Below, in pieces: positions 4,500 through 13,395 of a DNA stretch of 64,000 nucleotides. This stretch comes from an uncultured Planctomycetota bacterium (lineage in GTDB: Bacteria > Planctomycetota > Phycisphaerae > SM23-33). The stretch is from assembly GCA_903892515.1 (NCBI GenBank), contig CAITIS010000134.1, forward strand, positions 62,001-126,000, written 5' to 3'. Position 1 is the stretch's first letter. Each line of letters begins with the position of its first letter. The translations under genes were made by a program, and so were the position numbers. The notes under the pieces were generated by a model, which was given only the letters and a program-made list of their open reading frames with translations, was not told the DNA's origin and ran no database searches.

Positions 4500-6335
4500 C
4501 TATTGGTCTGCCAGCGGAGCCTCGGGGTAGAACTTGTAATCCGGGCCCAGCGTTACGGTCGTGACGCTGGTATCCGCATTGGCGGGCACCGCAAAGAAGA
4601 AGATGCACCGCAAGTTCTTGGCCGATGGATTTGTCAGCGCGGCGATGGCGTTGGGGTCGATCACGGGCGACGGCTGGCCGGGCTTAGGCGCCTGGTCGGC
4701 ATCAAAAGAAATGTAGATCTGATGGTCGTTGCCCGGCCCATCGCTCTGAACCAATGTGCCCATGGCCCCGACGGTCCTGCCATCGCTCAGGATCACGGTC
4801 GGCTGGAGCTTGTCTACCTGGGCCTTGAACTCCTCGCTGCCGGCAGCGCCCGGATTCACTTTGAAGCGCACTTGCAACACAACCGCGCCTGTCGGGTTGG
4901 ACAAGATGGTTAGCGCCCGGGCCTTGACCACATTGCCCTTCTCCATGACCTGCTGCTGCAAGCCTTCCATCGTGATGGCGCGGACGCGCAGGCCCTCTAG
5001 CCGCATCTCTTTGATTTCCTCGGGCCGTCCCTCCGCCGATGCGAACTCCGGCACGTTACGCTCCAGCCTGTTTGATGTCTCCATCGTCTCGGGCTGGAGG
5101 TACTTCCCAGGGCTGGGCGGGAAGGTGATCGAGCCTTGCACCGGCTTCATGCCCAGCGCCAATTGCCCCGACTTGGCATCGGCGGGCACGGGCAGCCCCG
5201 CCACCACGGCCGGGGCGGGCACCGAAAGCGCGTTGCGGAAGACCATGTATTCGGGCTTTTCGTTGTCCGGCAGGCGATACACCCAGTCCGCCACCAGGTG
5301 GTTGCCCTTCTTGGGCCGGGTCACCACGATGTCGCCGATCTTGCCGGCCTTGTCGCTGTTGGCCGGCGGGTTAACTCGCCAGGCCCCCACGTACGTCAGG
5401 TAGCCCACCGGGTAATACTCGTTGTACTCATTATTCCCCGTCTTGGTGACCAGGCGGAAGTGCGTCGCCGGCAGCCGAAACCACGAATCGCCGTCGCCGG
5501 CGTCTTCGTTGACGGACACCCGCGCCACGTACAGCTTGCTGGGGCGGGAATGATCGCCCAGCGGGTATGTCGAAGTATCCTCAATCAGCCGCTGGCGCGT
5601 GGCTTCGTCGGCGCCCTTGAACTTCTCGCTGCCTTCCTGCTCGGTGAGACTATACAACTCCAGAAACTGGCAGGACTTCAGGCCGGTGTCCGCCGAGCCG
5701 CCGGGCGGGCGGTTGCGCAGGCCAAAGCTTTCCAGCAGCGGATCCTTGTGCGCCTGGCCGAAGCTGACGGCCTCGTCGCTCATGGAACACAGAGAGTTGG
5801 CCGACAGGGTCCGCATCAATCCCAACGTGAAGTCGGCGCTGAACCGGGGCGTCAAGGCCGTGTCTTCCGACAGGTCTGCCTTGTAGGCCTTGTAGCCCAG
5901 CACGTCGGCGCTCCACCGGGACAGACCGGCGTCCTTCTGCCCCTCCATCGGGGTCGTATCGGTCGCCGGGAAGGGCAGCATCTGCGCGACGATCGAGATC
6001 ATGCCCACCATCACCATGCCGGCCAGGAACCCAAAGACGCCGCCGCCGATTCGGTCGGGCCACTCGCCCAGCACGACGTTGCCCTTGAGCTTCCAGTCAA
6101 ACAACTCGCGCAGCGCGATCAGCGGCACGATGAACAGCACCGCCAGGGCGGTGGGGTACGCGAACGCGCCCATTCGGTCGATCACCAGGCTGCCCAGCGG
6201 CTCGTAGTAGTTGAAGGCGATGGCGGCGCTGAGGACCGTCAGCAGGAACAGGATCATGGCGCTGAACAGTCCATGCAGCGATTGGAAGAAGGCGATGCCC
6301 AACAATAGCAAGGTCAGCACGATGACGAATATCAT
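4500..6335 (-). CDS. CvpA-like membrane protein with large extra domain
   Basis: Residues 1-130 contain about four hydrophobic segments (starting MIFVIVLTLLLLGIAFFQSLHGLFSA, then ILFLLTVLSAAIAFNYY, YPTALAVLFIVPLIALREL and GGGVFGFLAGMVMVGMISIV) with the look of a CvpA/colicin V production-type domain. About 480 residues of soluble sequence follow, with no motif I recognise. The family is much shorter (about 160-200 aa), so the C-terminal region is an addition; its position relative to the membrane is not clear from sequence alone. GGAG lies about 11 bases upstream of the ATG. It begins 17 bases after the GspE-like gene, so pilT, the GspE-like gene and this gene form one minus-strand operon. 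A role in the same envelope machine is inferred from position only. Confidence 0.65.
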   Translation of the reverse strand: MIFVIVLTLLLLGIAFFQSLHGLFSAMILFLLTVLSAAIAFNYYEPLGSLVIDRMGAFAYPTALAVLFIVPLIALRELFDWKLKGNVVLGEWPDRIGGGVFGFLAGMVMVGMISIVAQMLPFPATDTTPMEGQKDAGLSRWSADVLGYKAYKADLSEDTALTPRFSADFTLGLMRTLSANSLCSMSDEAVSFGQAHKDPLLESFGLRNRPPGGSADTGLKSCQFLELYSLTEQEGSEKFKGADEATRQRLIEDTSTYPLGDHSRPSKLYVARVSVNEDAGDGDSWFRLPATHFRLVTKTGNNEYNEYYPVGYLTYVGAWRVNPPANSDKAGKIGDIVVTRPKKGNHLVADWVYRLPDNEKPEYMVFRNALSVPAPAVVAGLPVPADAKSGQLALGMKPVQGSITFPPSPGKYLQPETMETSNRLERNVPEFASAEGRPEEIKEMRLEGLRVRAITMEGLQQQVMEKGNVVKARALTILSNPTGAVVLQVRFKVNPGAAGSEEFKAQVDKLQPTVILSDGRTVGAMGTLVQSDGPGNDHQIYISFDADQAPKPGQPSPVIDPNAIAALTNPSAKNLRCIFFFAVPANADTSVTTVTLGPDYKFYPEAPLADQ

Positions 6336-6352: not shown

Positions 6353-7993
6353 CTAGGCTTCTTGGCTCTTGGCCCTGGTGACGCGAATGACCTCCTCGAC
6401 GCTCGTCACGCCCTCGATCACCTTTCGCAGCCCCTGCTCCTGCAAATACAGCATCTTGTTCTTGCGGGCGGCCGACTTGATCTTGGCCAGCGGGGTCTCC
6501 GACAGCACCATCTGCCGGATTTCGTCGGTCAGTTCCAGCAATTCAAAGGCAGCCGTCCGGCCGAGGTAGCCCGTGCCCTGACACGTCGCACACGTGACGG
6601 GGTTGCCCTTCTCATCCACCAGCGGCTTGGTCGGCTTGCGATAGAACTTGTCGATCTTGGCCGGCAGATTCAGCTTGGCCAGCACTTCCCGCGCCGGCGT
6701 GTAGCCTTCCTTGCAGTTGGGGCAGAGCTTCCGCAGCAGCATCTGGCAGATGATGCCCTTGAGCAGCCGCAGACCGTCTTCCTTGTCGTTGCCGACGGCC
6801 TGGACCCACTTGGCCAAGGCGATAAAACTGTTCTCGGCGTTCATGCCGATAATGATGTTCTTTGCCCCGGCCGCTTCAATGAGTTGGCCGGCGGCATCGA
6901 CGGACTCGCACTTGTCCACCATCACCACGTCCGGGTCGCGCCGCAAACTCTGGCTCAACTTGACGGGAAGCTCCGTCTGATCCTTGTACAGGACCTGTGT
7001 GACGTTCTCCAGGTCCACGACACTGGGGCTTTCCAGCGTCAGCAACTGCTTCATGAACGAGTCGTGCTTGCGCAGCAGCGAATACAGCGTGCTGGTCACG
7101 CCGTTGCGCCGCGGCCCGGACACGATGATGATTCCACCATCGGCCTCATTAAGTTCCAGCAGCTTGGCCCTGATGTCATCGGTCAGGCCCAGTTCATCCA
7201 AGTTGATCTTGGTGGCCTCCTGCACGATCTTGACCTGGAGCCGCTGGCCATGAGTGGTGCCCGAGGTCGTCACGTCCACGTCCACCTTGACCGCGCCGGC
7301 GTCCACGGCCAGCTTGCCCTGCTGGGGGCGGCGCTTCTCTTCCAGGTTGATGCCCGAGATCTGCTTGACGTAGTTGATGAGCATCTCGGCCTCAGGCAGC
7401 GTGGCCGGCGGTTGATTGTGGATGACGCCGTCGATAACGAAACGGACGGCTGCCTGCTCGCCGGTGGGCGTGATGTCGGCGTCGCTGGCACGGAATGTAA
7501 TCAAGTTGTACAGGAAGCCCTGGATCAGGTTATAGGCCTTGCGATCCTCGATCTGGTCGTCCATCGGCGGCGGGAAGAAGCGGCGGATATGGTCGTAGAT
7601 CTTGACCTTCTGGACCAAGCCTATGCCAGTCTCTCGCTTCTGCCGGGCGAGCAGGCTGTGGATATGATCGGCCGTCAGGACACGGGCATCGGGCAGCACG
7701 CGTTTGTTGCGGTACCCGACGTACCCGGCCACAAAGCCAGCCAGCACCACGATATACAAGGCAAGCCCGACGAAATACCAGGGTAGCAGCAGCCAGATCA
7801 GCACGGGCAGGAAGCCCGAGGCTAAAGCGGCAGCGCTCCAAATGGCCTGGCTGCCGTGGACGTGCTTGGAGTCCTTGTTGACCCAACTGGCGGCATACAG
7901 CCACGGAGGCAGCATGGCCGCCATGAGCAGGATCTTAAAGAGGCTGAAGTACTCTCCGGTGGGCGGTACTGCGGCCAGCAATAACATTTCCAT
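6353..7993 (-). CDS. GspE/PilB-like protein with membrane N-terminus and degenerate ATPase motifs
   Basis: The C-terminal two thirds match the type II secretion/type IV pilus assembly ATPase family (GspE/PilB). The zinc-binding tetracysteine pair CPNC ... CATCQGTGYLGR and the downstream ELLELTDEIR block are intact. Two things are odd. Walker A, normally GPTGSGKTT, reads GPRRNGVTST, with Val (about residue 299) in place of the essential Lys. Walker B, normally DPDVIMVGE, reads DPDVVMVDK. The N-terminus has about two to three hydrophobic segments (residues about 15-100) that cytosolic PilB/GspE lacks. ATP hydrolysis is therefore doubtful, and a membrane-anchored structural or regulatory pseudo-ATPase is more likely. 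The frame opens with a GTG at 8002 that abuts the end of pilT; the ATG at 7993 with GGTGGAAGG upstream is preferred. Confidence 0.85.
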   Translation of the reverse strand: MEMLLLAAVPPTGEYFSLFKILLMAAMLPPWLYAASWVNKDSKHVHGSQAIWSAAALASGFLPVLIWLLLPWYFVGLALYIVVLAGFVAGYVGYRNKRVLPDARVLTADHIHSLLARQKRETGIGLVQKVKIYDHIRRFFPPPMDDQIEDRKAYNLIQGFLYNLITFRASDADITPTGEQAAVRFVIDGVIHNQPPATLPEAEMLINYVKQISGINLEEKRRPQQGKLAVDAGAVKVDVDVTTSGTTHGQRLQVKIVQEATKINLDELGLTDDIRAKLLELNEADGGIIIVSGPRRNGVTSTLYSLLRKHDSFMKQLLTLESPSVVDLENVTQVLYKDQTELPVKLSQSLRRDPDVVMVDKCESVDAAGQLIEAAGAKNIIIGMNAENSFIALAKWVQAVGNDKEDGLRLLKGIICQMLLRKLCPNCKEGYTPAREVLAKLNLPAKIDKFYRKPTKPLVDEKGNPVTCATCQGTGYLGRTAAFELLELTDEIRQMVLSETPLAKIKSAARKNKMLYLQEQGLRKVIEGVTSVEEVIRVTRAKSQEA

Positions 7994-8003
7994 CCCTTCC
8001 ACC

Positions 8004-9152
8004 TTACCGCATCAGGCCTGAACGAGAGGCCGAGATACCCTTGAGGATCATGCGCAACTCGTCGGCGTTGGGCGACGCATCGTAGGCCACCTTGGGATCG
8101 ACAAAGTCCGTCTCGATCAGCCTGTGCAGGCTGGTGTTGAAGTCCTGCATGCCTTCCATCTGGCAGCCGCGAATGATATCCACCAGCTCCTGGTCGCGCC
8201 CCTCGGAAATCATCTGCCGGGCCGACGGGTTGCACAGCAGGATTTCCACCGCCGGCACCCGGTCCACGCCCGGCTTGATGCACGGCAGCAGTTTCTGCAC
8301 CACGATCGCCCGCAAATTGAACGCCAACGACTGGCGGGCCAGTTCCCGGCTCTCCGGCGGATACAGGTCCAAGATGCGGCCGATGGTCGAAGAGGCCGTC
8401 GAAGAGTGAATGGTGCCAAAGACCAGGTGGCCCGTCTCGGCGGCGCCGACGGCAGCCTGGAAGGTCTCCAAGTCGCGCATCTCGCCGATGAGCACGATGT
8501 CGGGATCCTGACGCATCAGGTACTTCAAGGCGTTCTTGAAGTCCGGCACGTCGATGCCGATTTCGCGCTGATTGATCAGCGCCTTCTTGTCGGTGTACAG
8601 GTACTCGATCGGGTCTTCCACCGTGACGATGTGGGCAGCGCGCGTATTGTTAATGTATTCCAGGATCGAGGCGATGGTCGTGCTCTTGCCCGAGCCGGTG
8701 ATGCCCGCCAGCAAGACCAGCCCGGCGTGATACTCGGCCATGCGGCTGATGGTGGGCGGCAGGTGAAGTTGTTCAAAGTTCGGGATGATGCGTGTGACGC
8801 GCCGCACGGCTACGCTGTGCTCGCCGCGCTGACGGAAGATATTGATACGGAAGCGGTCAGAGCCTTCGAGTTCCTCGGCCACGTCAACGGCCCCGTTATC
8901 CAGCAGGAACTTCAACTGGACTTCAGAGAGGATCTCCTTGCACATGTCGAAGATGTCTTCGCCCGTCAGCGGCGCGCCCTTGACCGGCACGATCTTGGTG
9001 CGGTGGCGGATGTGCGGGACGGACCCGGCCTTGAGGTGCAAGTCGCTGGCCTTTTGATTCACCAGCGCCCGGAAGTACTTGTGCAGCCGCGGTTCTTTGC
9101 CGTGCCGTTCGGGGTGCTGGTCATGTACGTCGATAGGCTGCTCTGGAACCAC
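8004..9152 (-). CDS. pilT: PilT-type twitching motility/retraction ATPase
   Basis: Hexameric ATPase that powers pilus retraction at the inner-membrane base. All motor motifs are intact: Walker A GITGSGKST (residues about 150-158), Asp box VTVEDPIEY, Walker B DIVLIGEMRD, and His box HLVFGTIHSS. Length 382 aa is normal. The start is a GTG at 9152 supported by GAGGAG about 8 bases upstream. It is the first gene of the minus-strand trio with the GspE-like pseudo-ATPase and the CvpA-like protein. PilT and PilU cannot be told apart safely here, and the usual C-terminal AIRNLIRE motif is not seen. Confidence 0.93.
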   Translation of the reverse strand: MVPEQPIDVHDQHPERHGKEPRLHKYFRALVNQKASDLHLKAGSVPHIRHRTKIVPVKGAPLTGEDIFDMCKEILSEVQLKFLLDNGAVDVAEELEGSDRFRINIFRQRGEHSVAVRRVTRIIPNFEQLHLPPTISRMAEYHAGLVLLAGITGSGKSTTIASILEYINNTRAAHIVTVEDPIEYLYTDKKALINQREIGIDVPDFKNALKYLMRQDPDIVLIGEMRDLETFQAAVGAAETGHLVFGTIHSSTASSTIGRILDLYPPESRELARQSLAFNLRAIVVQKLLPCIKPGVDRVPAVEILLCNPSARQMISEGRDQELVDIIRGCQMEGMQDFNTSLHRLIETDFVDPKVAYDASPNADELRMILKGISASRSGLMR

Positions 9153-10912: not shown

Positions 10913-12157
10913 CTGCGTACCCGCCTGTTCATTCTGACGCTCTGCTGCATATTGGCCGGTTACGCGGCTGGGGGCGATTTGCCCTCGTCTCGCCCGGCCG
11001 CCGGCGGTCTGGGTGCGCCAACATCGCGCGAGTCGAACTGGCCGCAGTGGCGCGGGCCGCACCGCGATGGCACGTCTGAGCAGCCCGTGCGCGGGCGCTG
11101 GCCCACCTCGGGGCCCCGGCGGCTGTGGCGCTGCCAGGTGGCCAAGGGCTACGGCGGCCTGGCCGTCCGCGACGCCCGCGTATACACGCTGGGCTGGGAG
11201 AAGGACGGCGACGTCCTGTACTGCATCGACGGCGACCTGGGCAACGTCATCTGGACCAGCCGCTACGTGTGCAAGGCCGGGCCGACGCTGGGGTCGCGCT
11301 GCACGCCCTCACTCGACCGCCGCTGGGTCTTCGTCCTGAGCCGGACGGGCGAATTGCTGGGCATCGACGGTGACACCGGACGAATCAAGTGGAAGAAGGA
11401 TCTCCTGGCCGGCGAGAGCGACCCGGCCAAGTTGCCCAGGAAGGGCCTGGCCTCCTCGCCGCTGGTGATGGGCGAGTTGGTCATCGCCGACGTGGGCGCG
11501 GTGGTGGCCGTCAATAAGCAGAGCGGCGACGTGGTCTGGCGCAGCGAGGGCTTCGCCGCCGGCTACGCCTCGCCCGTGCCACTGCTCTGCCAGGGCCAGG
11601 ACATGGTCGCGGTAATGAACAGCGACGGCCCGGCCGTGCTGCGCCCCGACGGACTGACCTTGTGCAAGCGCTCAGCTGCCAACGCCGCCGACGGCAATGG
11701 CTGCGATCCGCTGGTCGTCGGCCAGCGCGTCTTCTGCATCTTCTCGGGTGCTGGCTGCGGCCTGCTGGAGCCGGAATTCCCCAACTTCAATGTCATCTGG
11801 CAGGGCAAGCAGCTCACCAGTCTGTCGGCGAGCCCGGTGTATCTGAACGGCTTGATCTTCGGCCTGGAAGGCCTCAGCGGCCAGGTGGCCATCACGTGCA
11901 TCCAGGCGGATTCGGGCAAGATAAAATGGACCGGACCGGCCATGGACAACGCTACGATGATCCTGGCCGACGGCAAGCTCATACTGCTGACCGAGTCGGG
12001 CGAACTGCTGCTGGTGTCGACCGACGGCCAAGGGTACAAAGAGCTGGCGCGGGCCAAGGTGATGTCCGGGCCGTGCGCGGCGCCACCGGCGCTGGCCGGC
12101 GGGCGGCTGTACTGCCGCAACGTGGCCGGCGACGTGATTTGCGTGAATTTCAAGTAA
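10913..12157 (+). CDS. PQQ-type beta-propeller protein, secreted (first of pair)
   Basis: About 414 aa. After the signal peptide it reads NWPQWRGPHRDGTS, the W-RGP-RDG opening common in planctomycetal PQQ-like (BamB/quinoprotein-dehydrogenase fold) proteins, and then repeated blades with LYCIDGDLGNVIWTS, LLGIDGDTGRIKWKK and VVAVNKQSGDVVWRS, which are the G-x-x-x-W propeller signatures. The start is uncertain. No ATG begins the signal peptide: the hydrophobic stretch LFILTLCCILAGYAAGG is read in frame from a CTG at 10913 or 10925, while the TTG at 10952 would cut it. I use 10913. Eleven bases separate it from the second propeller gene. Ligand and enzymatic activity are unknown. Confidence 0.8.
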   Translation: MRTRLFILTLCCILAGYAAGGDLPSSRPAAGGLGAPTSRESNWPQWRGPHRDGTSEQPVRGRWPTSGPRRLWRCQVAKGYGGLAVRDARVYTLGWEKDGDVLYCIDGDLGNVIWTSRYVCKAGPTLGSRCTPSLDRRWVFVLSRTGELLGIDGDTGRIKWKKDLLAGESDPAKLPRKGLASSPLVMGELVIADVGAVVAVNKQSGDVVWRSEGFAAGYASPVPLLCQGQDMVAVMNSDGPAVLRPDGLTLCKRSAANAADGNGCDPLVVGQRVFCIFSGAGCGLLEPEFPNFNVIWQGKQLTSLSASPVYLNGLIFGLEGLSGQVAITCIQADSGKIKWTGPAMDNATMILADGKLILLTESGELLLVSTDGQGYKELARAKVMSGPCAAPPALAGGRLYCRNVAGDVICVNFK

Positions 12158-12168
12158 GAGGAACGAAC

Positions 12169-13395
12169 ATGCGAGATGTACTGCGATGGACGGCGGCGTG
12201 GGCACTGCTTCTGGGACTGGTACTGGGCGTGAGGGCGCAGCAGTCGGCGCCGGCCGGGAAGGACTGGAACCAGTATCGCGGCCCCCAACGCGACGGCATC
12301 ACTGCCGATACTGACTGGAAAGTCTGGGCGGGCGAGCCCAAGATCGCCTGGAAGGCCAGCGTGAACGTCGGCTACTCCGCCGTTACCGTCGCCGACGGCA
12401 AGGCCTATGCCACCGGCAACAAGGATAACCTCGATACCGTCTTTTGCTTTGACGCCAAGACCGGCGCGCCCATTTGGAAGTACGAGTACGCCTGCAAGAC
12501 CCTGCCGACTCCGCAGTGGCCCGGCACGCGTTCGACGCCCGCGGTGGTGGACGGCCAGCTGTACACGCTGAGTTCCGAGGGCGAGTGCCTCTGCCTCAAC
12601 GCCGCCGACGGCAAGCTGGTGTGGGCCAAGAAGCTGGCTGAGGAACTGGAAGTCAAGGGCCCGCAGTGGAGCTTTGCCGGCTCGCCGCTGCCGCTGGGTG
12701 AGTGGATCGTGCTGGACATGGGCACCGTTGTGGCCCTGGACAAGGCCGATGGCAAGATCGCCTGGCGGAGCGCCGAGAAGTTCAAGCCCAGCTACGCCTC
12801 GCCCGTGCTGATCACGATTGGCGGCAAGCAATGCGTGGCCGTCGTGAACGGCGACGGACCGGCCATCGTCGAGGTCCCCAGCGGCAAGACCGTGTGCAAG
12901 GACACGTGGAAGACGCAGTACGACATCAATGCCTGCGACCTGCTGGTGGTGGGCGAGAAGTTCTTCGTGACCTCGGGCTACAACCATGGCTGTGCCCTGT
13001 ACGATGCCGCCGGCGGCCAGTGCAAGAAGGTGTACGAGAACAAGGACCTGGCCGACCAGTTCAGCGCCCCGGTGCTCGAGGACGGGTACATCTACGGCTT
13101 TAGCGGCAACGTCGGCGCCGAGACGCTCAAGTGCGTGGAGCTGGCTACCGGCGCAGTGAAGTGGAGCGGGCCCAAGGTCAAGGTCGGCTCGTGCATCCTG
13201 TCGGGCGATCGGCTGATCATGATGGGCGACGGCAACCTGATCATCGCCCAGGCCAATCCCGAAGGTTACAAAGAGCTGGCCAAGGCCAGGATTCTCGAAG
13301 GCGAGACCTGGACGATGCCCGTGCTGGCGGACGGCAGGATCTACTGCCGCAGCACGCCCGGCCAACTGGTGTGCGTGGACGTGAGCGGGAAGTGA
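12169..13395 (+). CDS. PQQ-type beta-propeller protein, secreted (second of pair)
   Basis: 408 aa, a paralogue of the preceding protein. The signal peptide covers residues 1-24 (WALLLGLVLGVRAQ). The mature protein begins with DWNQYRGPQRDG and has blades marked by VFCFDAKTGAPIWKY, CLCLNAADGKLVWAK, VVALDKADGKIAWRS and CVELATGAVKWSG. AGAGGAA lies about seven bases before the ATG. The same frame is open for a further 500 bases upstream inside the first propeller gene, but the signal peptide and ribosome site fix the start here. It is the second gene of a four-gene operon leading into ferredoxin and radical SAM genes. Its role could be binding PQQ or just a scaffold; catalysis cannot be read from the sequence. 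Confidence 0.88.
   Translation: MRDVLRWTAAWALLLGLVLGVRAQQSAPAGKDWNQYRGPQRDGITADTDWKVWAGEPKIAWKASVNVGYSAVTVADGKAYATGNKDNLDTVFCFDAKTGAPIWKYEYACKTLPTPQWPGTRSTPAVVDGQLYTLSSEGECLCLNAADGKLVWAKKLAEELEVKGPQWSFAGSPLPLGEWIVLDMGTVVALDKADGKIAWRSAEKFKPSYASPVLITIGGKQCVAVVNGDGPAIVEVPSGKTVCKDTWKTQYDINACDLLVVGEKFFVTSGYNHGCALYDAAGGQCKKVYENKDLADQFSAPVLEDGYIYGFSGNVGAETLKCVELATGAVKWSGPKVKVGSCILSGDRLIMMGDGNLIIAQANPEGYKELAKARILEGETWTMPVLADGRIYCRSTPGQLVCVDVSGK

Follow-up and report, generated by a model that had tools for sequence, protein, structure and literature searches.

The locus

The window, by which we mean the whole 64,000-nucleotide stretch of DNA analyzed here, carries a GspE/PilB-like gene, here called tmE, between pilT and a gene for a CvpA-like membrane protein (Table 1). 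Translation from the GTG at position 8002 gives a product of 549 aa; the in-frame ATG at 7993, which is codon 4 of the tmE frame and the boundary used in an earlier note on this DNA, gives 546 aa. The pilT gene lies upstream, its end separated from the GTG by 1 bp and from the ATG by 10 bp, and the CvpA-like gene starts 17 bp downstream of tmE. The same-strand open reading frames past the CvpA-like gene are presumably housekeeping genes, first a purA-like and then a uppS-like one, going by their sequences as read by eye. Elsewhere in the window (10952-13395), two adjacent open reading frames contain repeated sequence that appears PQQ/beta-propeller-like by eye.

Table 1. Coordinates of the features in the window
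Feature	Position	Strand	Basis
CvpA/Colicin_V-like membrane protein, 611 aa, long C-terminal domain	4500..6335	minus	Pfam match
tmE, three-helix GspE/PilB-like pseudo-ATPase	6353..8002	minus	ORF list, profile and model
tmE N-terminal membrane helices, three predicted, residues 21-99	7706..7942	minus	AlphaFold2 model
tmE Val302, at the Walker A lysine position	7097..7099	minus	alignment
tmE Asp363-Lys364 for Gly-Glu (catalytic glutamate) after Walker B	6911..6916	minus	alignment
tmE zinc tetracysteine, Cys427, Cys430, Cys471, Cys474	6581..6724	minus	invariant in alignment A1
pilT, 382 aa, all catalytic motifs intact	8004..9152	minus	NCBIfam pilT_fam, 387.9 vs 319.1 bits

Fold and membrane anchor of tmE

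The tmE protein matched PF00437 (T2SSE) well above the gathering cutoff (166.3 versus 24.9 bits). It fell below the equivalog cutoffs for GspE (TIGR02533; 215.4 versus 630.25 bits) and PilB (TIGR02538; 191.1 versus 675.65 bits), which its active three-helix relatives likewise do not reach, and below the PilT/PilU cutoff (TIGR01420; 34.8 versus 319.1 bits). The solved structures nearest to it by sequence were those of GspE and PilF/PilB, the identity with PilF (5oiu) being 28%. In the AlphaFold2 model (mean pLDDT, 86.5; pTM, 0.66), a PilB-like N2 and motor domain stands behind three predicted helices (residues 21-47, 52-72, and 76-99), and comparison with PilB (5tsh) gave a Z score of 40.0 and an rmsd of 2.2 over 374 aligned residues. 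No N1/MshEN-type Pfam match was found in the N terminus at E values up to 0.1. The helix region is itself conserved, as captured by the N-terminal profiles A2 and A4. The model agrees with the retained fold and the N-terminal membrane anchor that the earlier note had proposed.

The catalytic site

Seven active PilB/GspE paralogues from the same genome served as the reference for the motifs of tmE. Walker A reads GPRRNGVTS in tmE versus GPTGxGKT/S in the paralogues; Gly301 and Thr303, which flank Val302, are invariant in alignment A1. The first glycine of the P-loop varies. The Walker B region is VMVDKCES versus IMVGEIRD, the Asp box is LESPSV versus VEDPVE, and the His box is GMNAEN versus TLHTND. 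Both CxxC pairs are retained. The replacement of the Walker A lysine by valine and of GE by DK, together with the surviving zinc tetracysteine, had all been read from the single sequence and hold up in this comparison. Judged by the residues it has lost, tmE is a catalytically dead protein of the GspE/PilB type.

The same genome encodes a second degenerate GspE-like protein of 710 aa (L011; G000:C57:186325-187449), in which the Walker A lysine is present (PPRSGKST) and the GE and Asp boxes are gone (AACDVP and LEAGPS, respectively).

Conservation and selection within the class

The counts given here for "the class" refer to the class of the source genome, probably Phycisphaerae, and were made without the own-genome paralogues L008, L009, and L011. 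None of the 83 aligned class orthologues (perhaps 82 organisms, as L058 is apparently the same organism as L094) had a lysine in Walker A. The position was occupied by valine in 40 rows, leucine in 17, arginine in 15, isoleucine and alanine in 3 each, glutamine in 2, and threonine, serine, and methionine in 1 each. The preceding glycine was kept in 83 of 83 rows, and the following residue was threonine in 79 and serine in 3 (82 of 83 combined). Each zinc cysteine was present in at least 79 rows, the remainder being mostly gaps. The Asp box, GE, and His box were lost or unconstrained across the class; a glutamate occurred at the GE position in 15 of the 83 rows, with uncertain column placement in that loop. 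Since the lysine position is never lysine while the glycine, the threonine or serine, and the zinc cysteines are kept, the catalytic site of tmE has been reshaped under constraint.

The ratio dN/dS of tmE orthologues ranged from 0.088 to 0.240 in eight pairs from three genera (a simple Nei-Gojobori count, in which two of the eight dS values lie above 1.2 and are approximate). Together with the uniform absence of the lysine, this bears out the view of the earlier note that the dead ATPase has been kept; the loss of the lysine is conserved in a clade, and the gene is under selection. The gene was present in all 35 genomes of the family and all 38 genomes of the order that were searched and, by the N-terminal profile, in 279 of 297 class genomes, nearly always as a single copy. 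With the broader profile A4, matches were obtained in 183 of the 393 genomes searched across the phylum, divided by hand count into 102 of the class (the source genome and 101 rows) and 81 outside it. It recovered 8 of the 18 class genomes missed earlier, and the 20 misses that were listed (there are 190 others) all lay outside the class.

Neighboring genes

We sampled the neighborhoods of 61 loci, 41 in the class and 20 outside. The usual operon order was an active pilT, the dead ATPase gene, and the gene for the CvpA-like membrane protein, as in the window, where PilT has the motifs GITGSGKST, EDPIE, GEMRD, and HSS and the CvpA-like protein matches PF02674 (Colicin_V/CvpA) at 40.6 versus 29.3 bits. 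The placement of tmE between an intact pilT and a CvpA-like gene was thus correctly described at the outset. A PilT of this subfamily was found in 50 of the 61 neighborhoods (37/41 in the class and 13/20 outside). The Walker A lysine was intact in all 49 readable neighboring PilTs, the one at L134 being unreadable at Walker A, and the GE glutamate was present in 49 of 50. The seven nonclass loci with no adjacent PilT (L186 to L192) all belong to the intact family f43, and this PilT occurs elsewhere in their genomes.

At one locus (L129, genome G031), the PilT beside the orthologue reads VSDMRD for IGEMRD, so that its catalytic glutamate is absent and the rest is intact; going by these residues, both motors of G031 are possibly impaired.

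Two class families keep the dead gene with no clear copy of this PilT, namely, f8, in all 11 genomes tested, and f18, in both of its genomes tested. Their best PilT scores were at most 291 bits, and those of the 19 other class families, with one representative each, were at least 320 bits; this separation is blurred by an additional copy in G039, which scored 317 bits. A quick tree placed the PilTs of f8 with another paralogue and that of f18 just outside the clade. The idea that tmE partners the retraction ATPase stands in that the gene usually lies beside an active PilT, but it is not the whole story, and a strict dependence of the dead form on PilT is contradicted by f8 and f18.

PilTs of the same clade also occur without a three-helix gene. 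Among genomes that have no three-helix gene, 6 of 20 contained a close PilT relative (at least 350 bits); in five of these six, a GspE-like gene was absent beside PilT within the fetched stretch (only 3.3 kb in one case), and G316 was the only one to have it. The pair of PilT and a GspE-like protein is found inside and outside the class and is ancient.

Conservation of the CvpA-like protein is far lower than that of the ATPase. Past its membrane part, the protein continues for about 490 residues, and a fold search with its model (pLDDT, 69) returned no solved match (best E value, 0.063). Its gene lay beside the dead ATPase at 40 of the 41 class loci, a more constant adjacency than that of PilT. 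Given also the existence of PilT-free families, the steadier neighbor of the two is the CvpA-like protein. Outside the class, a 250-aa gene product in 13 of 20 loci resembles CvpA; two of these were tested and scored 21.1 and 25.7 bits in Pfam, below the cutoff of 29.3. The same pilT and CvpA-like neighbors were found at several active three-helix loci outside the class.

The only other gene recurring beside tmE orthologues is hisF, identified by Pfam on one member. It is found upstream of pilT at 27 of the 61 loci, in and out of the class though not in the window, and is an odd, long-lived neighbor.

Origin of the dead state

Outside the class, 32 of 55 three-helix rows have the Walker A lysine (L230 was removed as a duplicate of L254, as were extra loci from genomes already counted). 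The earlier note had regarded orthologues with an intact Walker A as a sign of local mutation or sequencing error. Such orthologues exist, but only outside the class; with 0 of 83 class rows against 32 of 55 nonclass rows, the dead state of tmE is a lineage-wide loss rather than a local error. Of the 55, 29 keep the lysine, aspartate, glutamate, and histidine, 23 have no lysine, and 3 are mixed. Among the mixed rows, L250 differs solely by an asparagine in the Asp box, and L201 keeps the lysine, has lost the other boxes, and looks decayed. In L243 (genome G550), a member of family f82, which has intact relatives, the lysine is kept, but neither the other boxes nor the zinc cysteines are. The partial decay of L243 and L201 looks like further separate events.

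ATPase trees were computed without the catalytic columns. The three-helix proteins formed one clade against the PilB/GspE proteins of the source genome, with support of 100/100 for a clade of 53 rows in one tree and again of 100/100 for 37 rows, the sister L305 included, in another. The latter (L305:4119-5735) is an intact GspE-like ATPase beside the same type of PilT; its N terminus begins like a signal peptide and has one helix and a stretch rich in Pro and Ala. Outside the class, active three-helix relatives occur in families f43, f48, f81, and f82 of other Planctomycetota. Since intact members lie at the base of the three-helix clade, the dead state is derived, and catalysis was lost, probably repeatedly, from an active three-helix ancestor.

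The number of lysine losses depended on the tree. We counted two lysine changes on the ATPase tree with 61 rows and one on that with 44 rows, where two dead clades join at 93/79, a join of fast-evolving dead clades that long-branch attraction may explain. AU tests rejected neither a single clade of all dead rows (P = 0.59) nor a single clade of nonclass rows without L194 and L203 (P = 0.29 to 0.30). The ATPase trees do not decide between one and two losses. In the tree of neighboring PilTs, those of the dead families f71, f74, and f80 grouped with those of the intact f43 and f82 with 100/99 support and separately from the class, which favors two losses if the operon was inherited together.

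Machine context in the genome

No PilC/GspF (T2SSF) or secretin gene was found on the 181-kb contig that carries tmE. Genome-wide, there were 18 T2SSF and 5 secretin matches, all on other contigs, and at least seven GspE/PilB motors with intact motifs at other loci. The tmE operon is therefore an orphan motor module and not the only pilus motor of the genome. Of the regulatory or platform role in a type IV pilus or secretion-like machine suggested for tmE, the platform is the part that we prefer, by inference; for membership in such a machine, the contig offers no PilC/GspF or secretin gene.

A proposed nonhydrolyzing platform and its alternatives

The loss of hydrolysis, the retention of the fold and the zinc site, the membrane anchor, and the adjacent active motor together point to a fixed platform or a ring with a coupling role. 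We tentatively favor, at somewhat short of an even chance, a model in which tmE is a nonhydrolyzing ring or adaptor, welded to the membrane, by which an active motor, in most cases PilT, becomes docked to a CvpA-like partner. The three N-terminal helices would anchor tmE in the inner membrane and leave the motor domain on the cytoplasmic side, its fold and zinc site retained without a working ATPase site. The positively charged residues after the third helix suggest this cytoplasmic placement, and an N terminus on the outside would fit the signal-peptide-like starts noted by eye in the active members L176 and L179. The active motor, for which the operon's own PilT is the usual candidate, would stack on or dock to the tmE ring, and the ring would relay the conformational cycle of the motor, or merely its position, to the CvpA-like protein and its large outer domain. 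In f8 and f18, another motor, or none, may serve tmE. We infer in this way the topology, the ring, the docking of PilT, the coupling to CvpA, the work done, and any pilus role.

A more specific version is less probable, namely, a two-part membrane motor whose proximal, GspE-type ring is naturally dead and permanently fixed in the membrane, all the power coming from a separate ring of PilT. In this version, an active three-helix ancestor would have given rise to the dead state on two or more occasions, and that state would have become universal in the class.

Against the platform count the families f8 and f18, the close PilT relatives in genomes that have no three-helix gene, and the absence of PilC and secretin genes nearby. 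The retained glycine and threonine of the P-loop also fit a nucleotide sensor and count against the platform. Such a sensor or switch would bind ATP, ADP, or another nucleotide without hydrolysis and signal energy state or surface contact through the helices to the CvpA-like protein. The near-invariance of these two positions despite the loss of the lysine, the arginine that takes its place in 15 of 83 rows, and the signaling effect of a Walker A mutant of Myxococcus PilB, as given in PMC11656802, all speak for it; the loss extends, however, to the Asp box, GE, and His box, and the first P-loop glycine varies, and we consider a sensor unlikely.

We assign the same low probability to an envelope device unrelated to pili, in which the dead ATPase would join the CvpA-like protein in a membrane complex for envelope upkeep, with PilT as one possible source of power. 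CvpA adjacency exceeds PilT adjacency in the class, this PilT has been lost in f8 and f18, PilC and secretin genes are absent from the contig, and the window neighbors are presumably, by their sequences, housekeeping genes, purA and a uppS-like one, but the ancient pairing of PilT with a GspE-like protein, in and out of the class, argues against such a device.

It is quite improbable that tmE regulates the other GspE/PilB motors of its genome, for example, through mixed hexamers that poison or anchor them. Targets exist in the intact motors at other loci, but the three-helix proteins form a separate deep clade and the operon partner is PilT, not PilB. Still less credible is an ATPase that works through other residues: the glutamate at the GE position in 15 of 83 rows could be cited for it, subject to the uncertain column placement, but the lysine, Asp box, and His box are all lost or unconstrained. 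A local mutation, a sequencing or assembly error, or a decaying pseudogene is contradicted by the open frame, the low dN/dS, and the absence of the lysine from every class row.

Implications and comparison with known systems

The motors of type IV pili and type II secretion systems are defined by ATP hydrolysis. A nonhydrolyzing member that is class-wide, single copy, and under selection, with a membrane anchor and sister clades that are active, separates the role of the ring's shape from that of hydrolysis; with tmE, a motor part seems to have been turned into a fixed membrane platform. The nonclass lineages, with intact and dead forms beside close PilTs, provide a natural series. Our literature search, confined to open-licence papers, found none that presents a natural GspE/PilB pseudo-ATPase in its title or the opening of its abstract, which is weak evidence of absence. 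According to PMC11958385, gene deletion tools exist for Planctopirus limnophila and Stieleria maiorica, and the question of tmE could be approached there if their genomes carry intact and dead forms.

Compared with the GspE/PilB (PilF) assembly ATPases, tmE shares the N2 and C-terminal motor fold and the zinc tetracysteine and differs in the three predicted membrane helices that apparently stand in for the usual N-terminal domain and in the loss of the Walker A lysine, GE, and the Asp and His boxes. The active three-helix GspE-like proteins of f43, f48, f81, and f82 resemble it in N terminus and clade, and several of them in their pilT and CvpA-like neighbors, but their catalytic residues are all intact. 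The downstream protein is like the CvpA (Colicin_V) family by PF02674 and unlike it by its long extra C-terminal domain.

By analogy, the nearest precedent for tmE is PilU acting with a catalytically dead PilT. According to PMC13142100 and PMC11656802, PilU powers retraction with such a PilT, and in the former, PilT and PilU are modeled as stacked rings. The likeness, with reference to PMC13142100, is that two related motors are usually encoded together and that one can be dead while the other works; if the two-part motor were true, tmE and PilT would be a natural version of the laboratory experiment with dead PilT and active PilU. The difference is that PilT and PilU are both natural ATPases, of the PilT type and soluble, whereas tmE is, by its residues, naturally dead, of the GspE/PilB type, and predicted to be anchored in the membrane.
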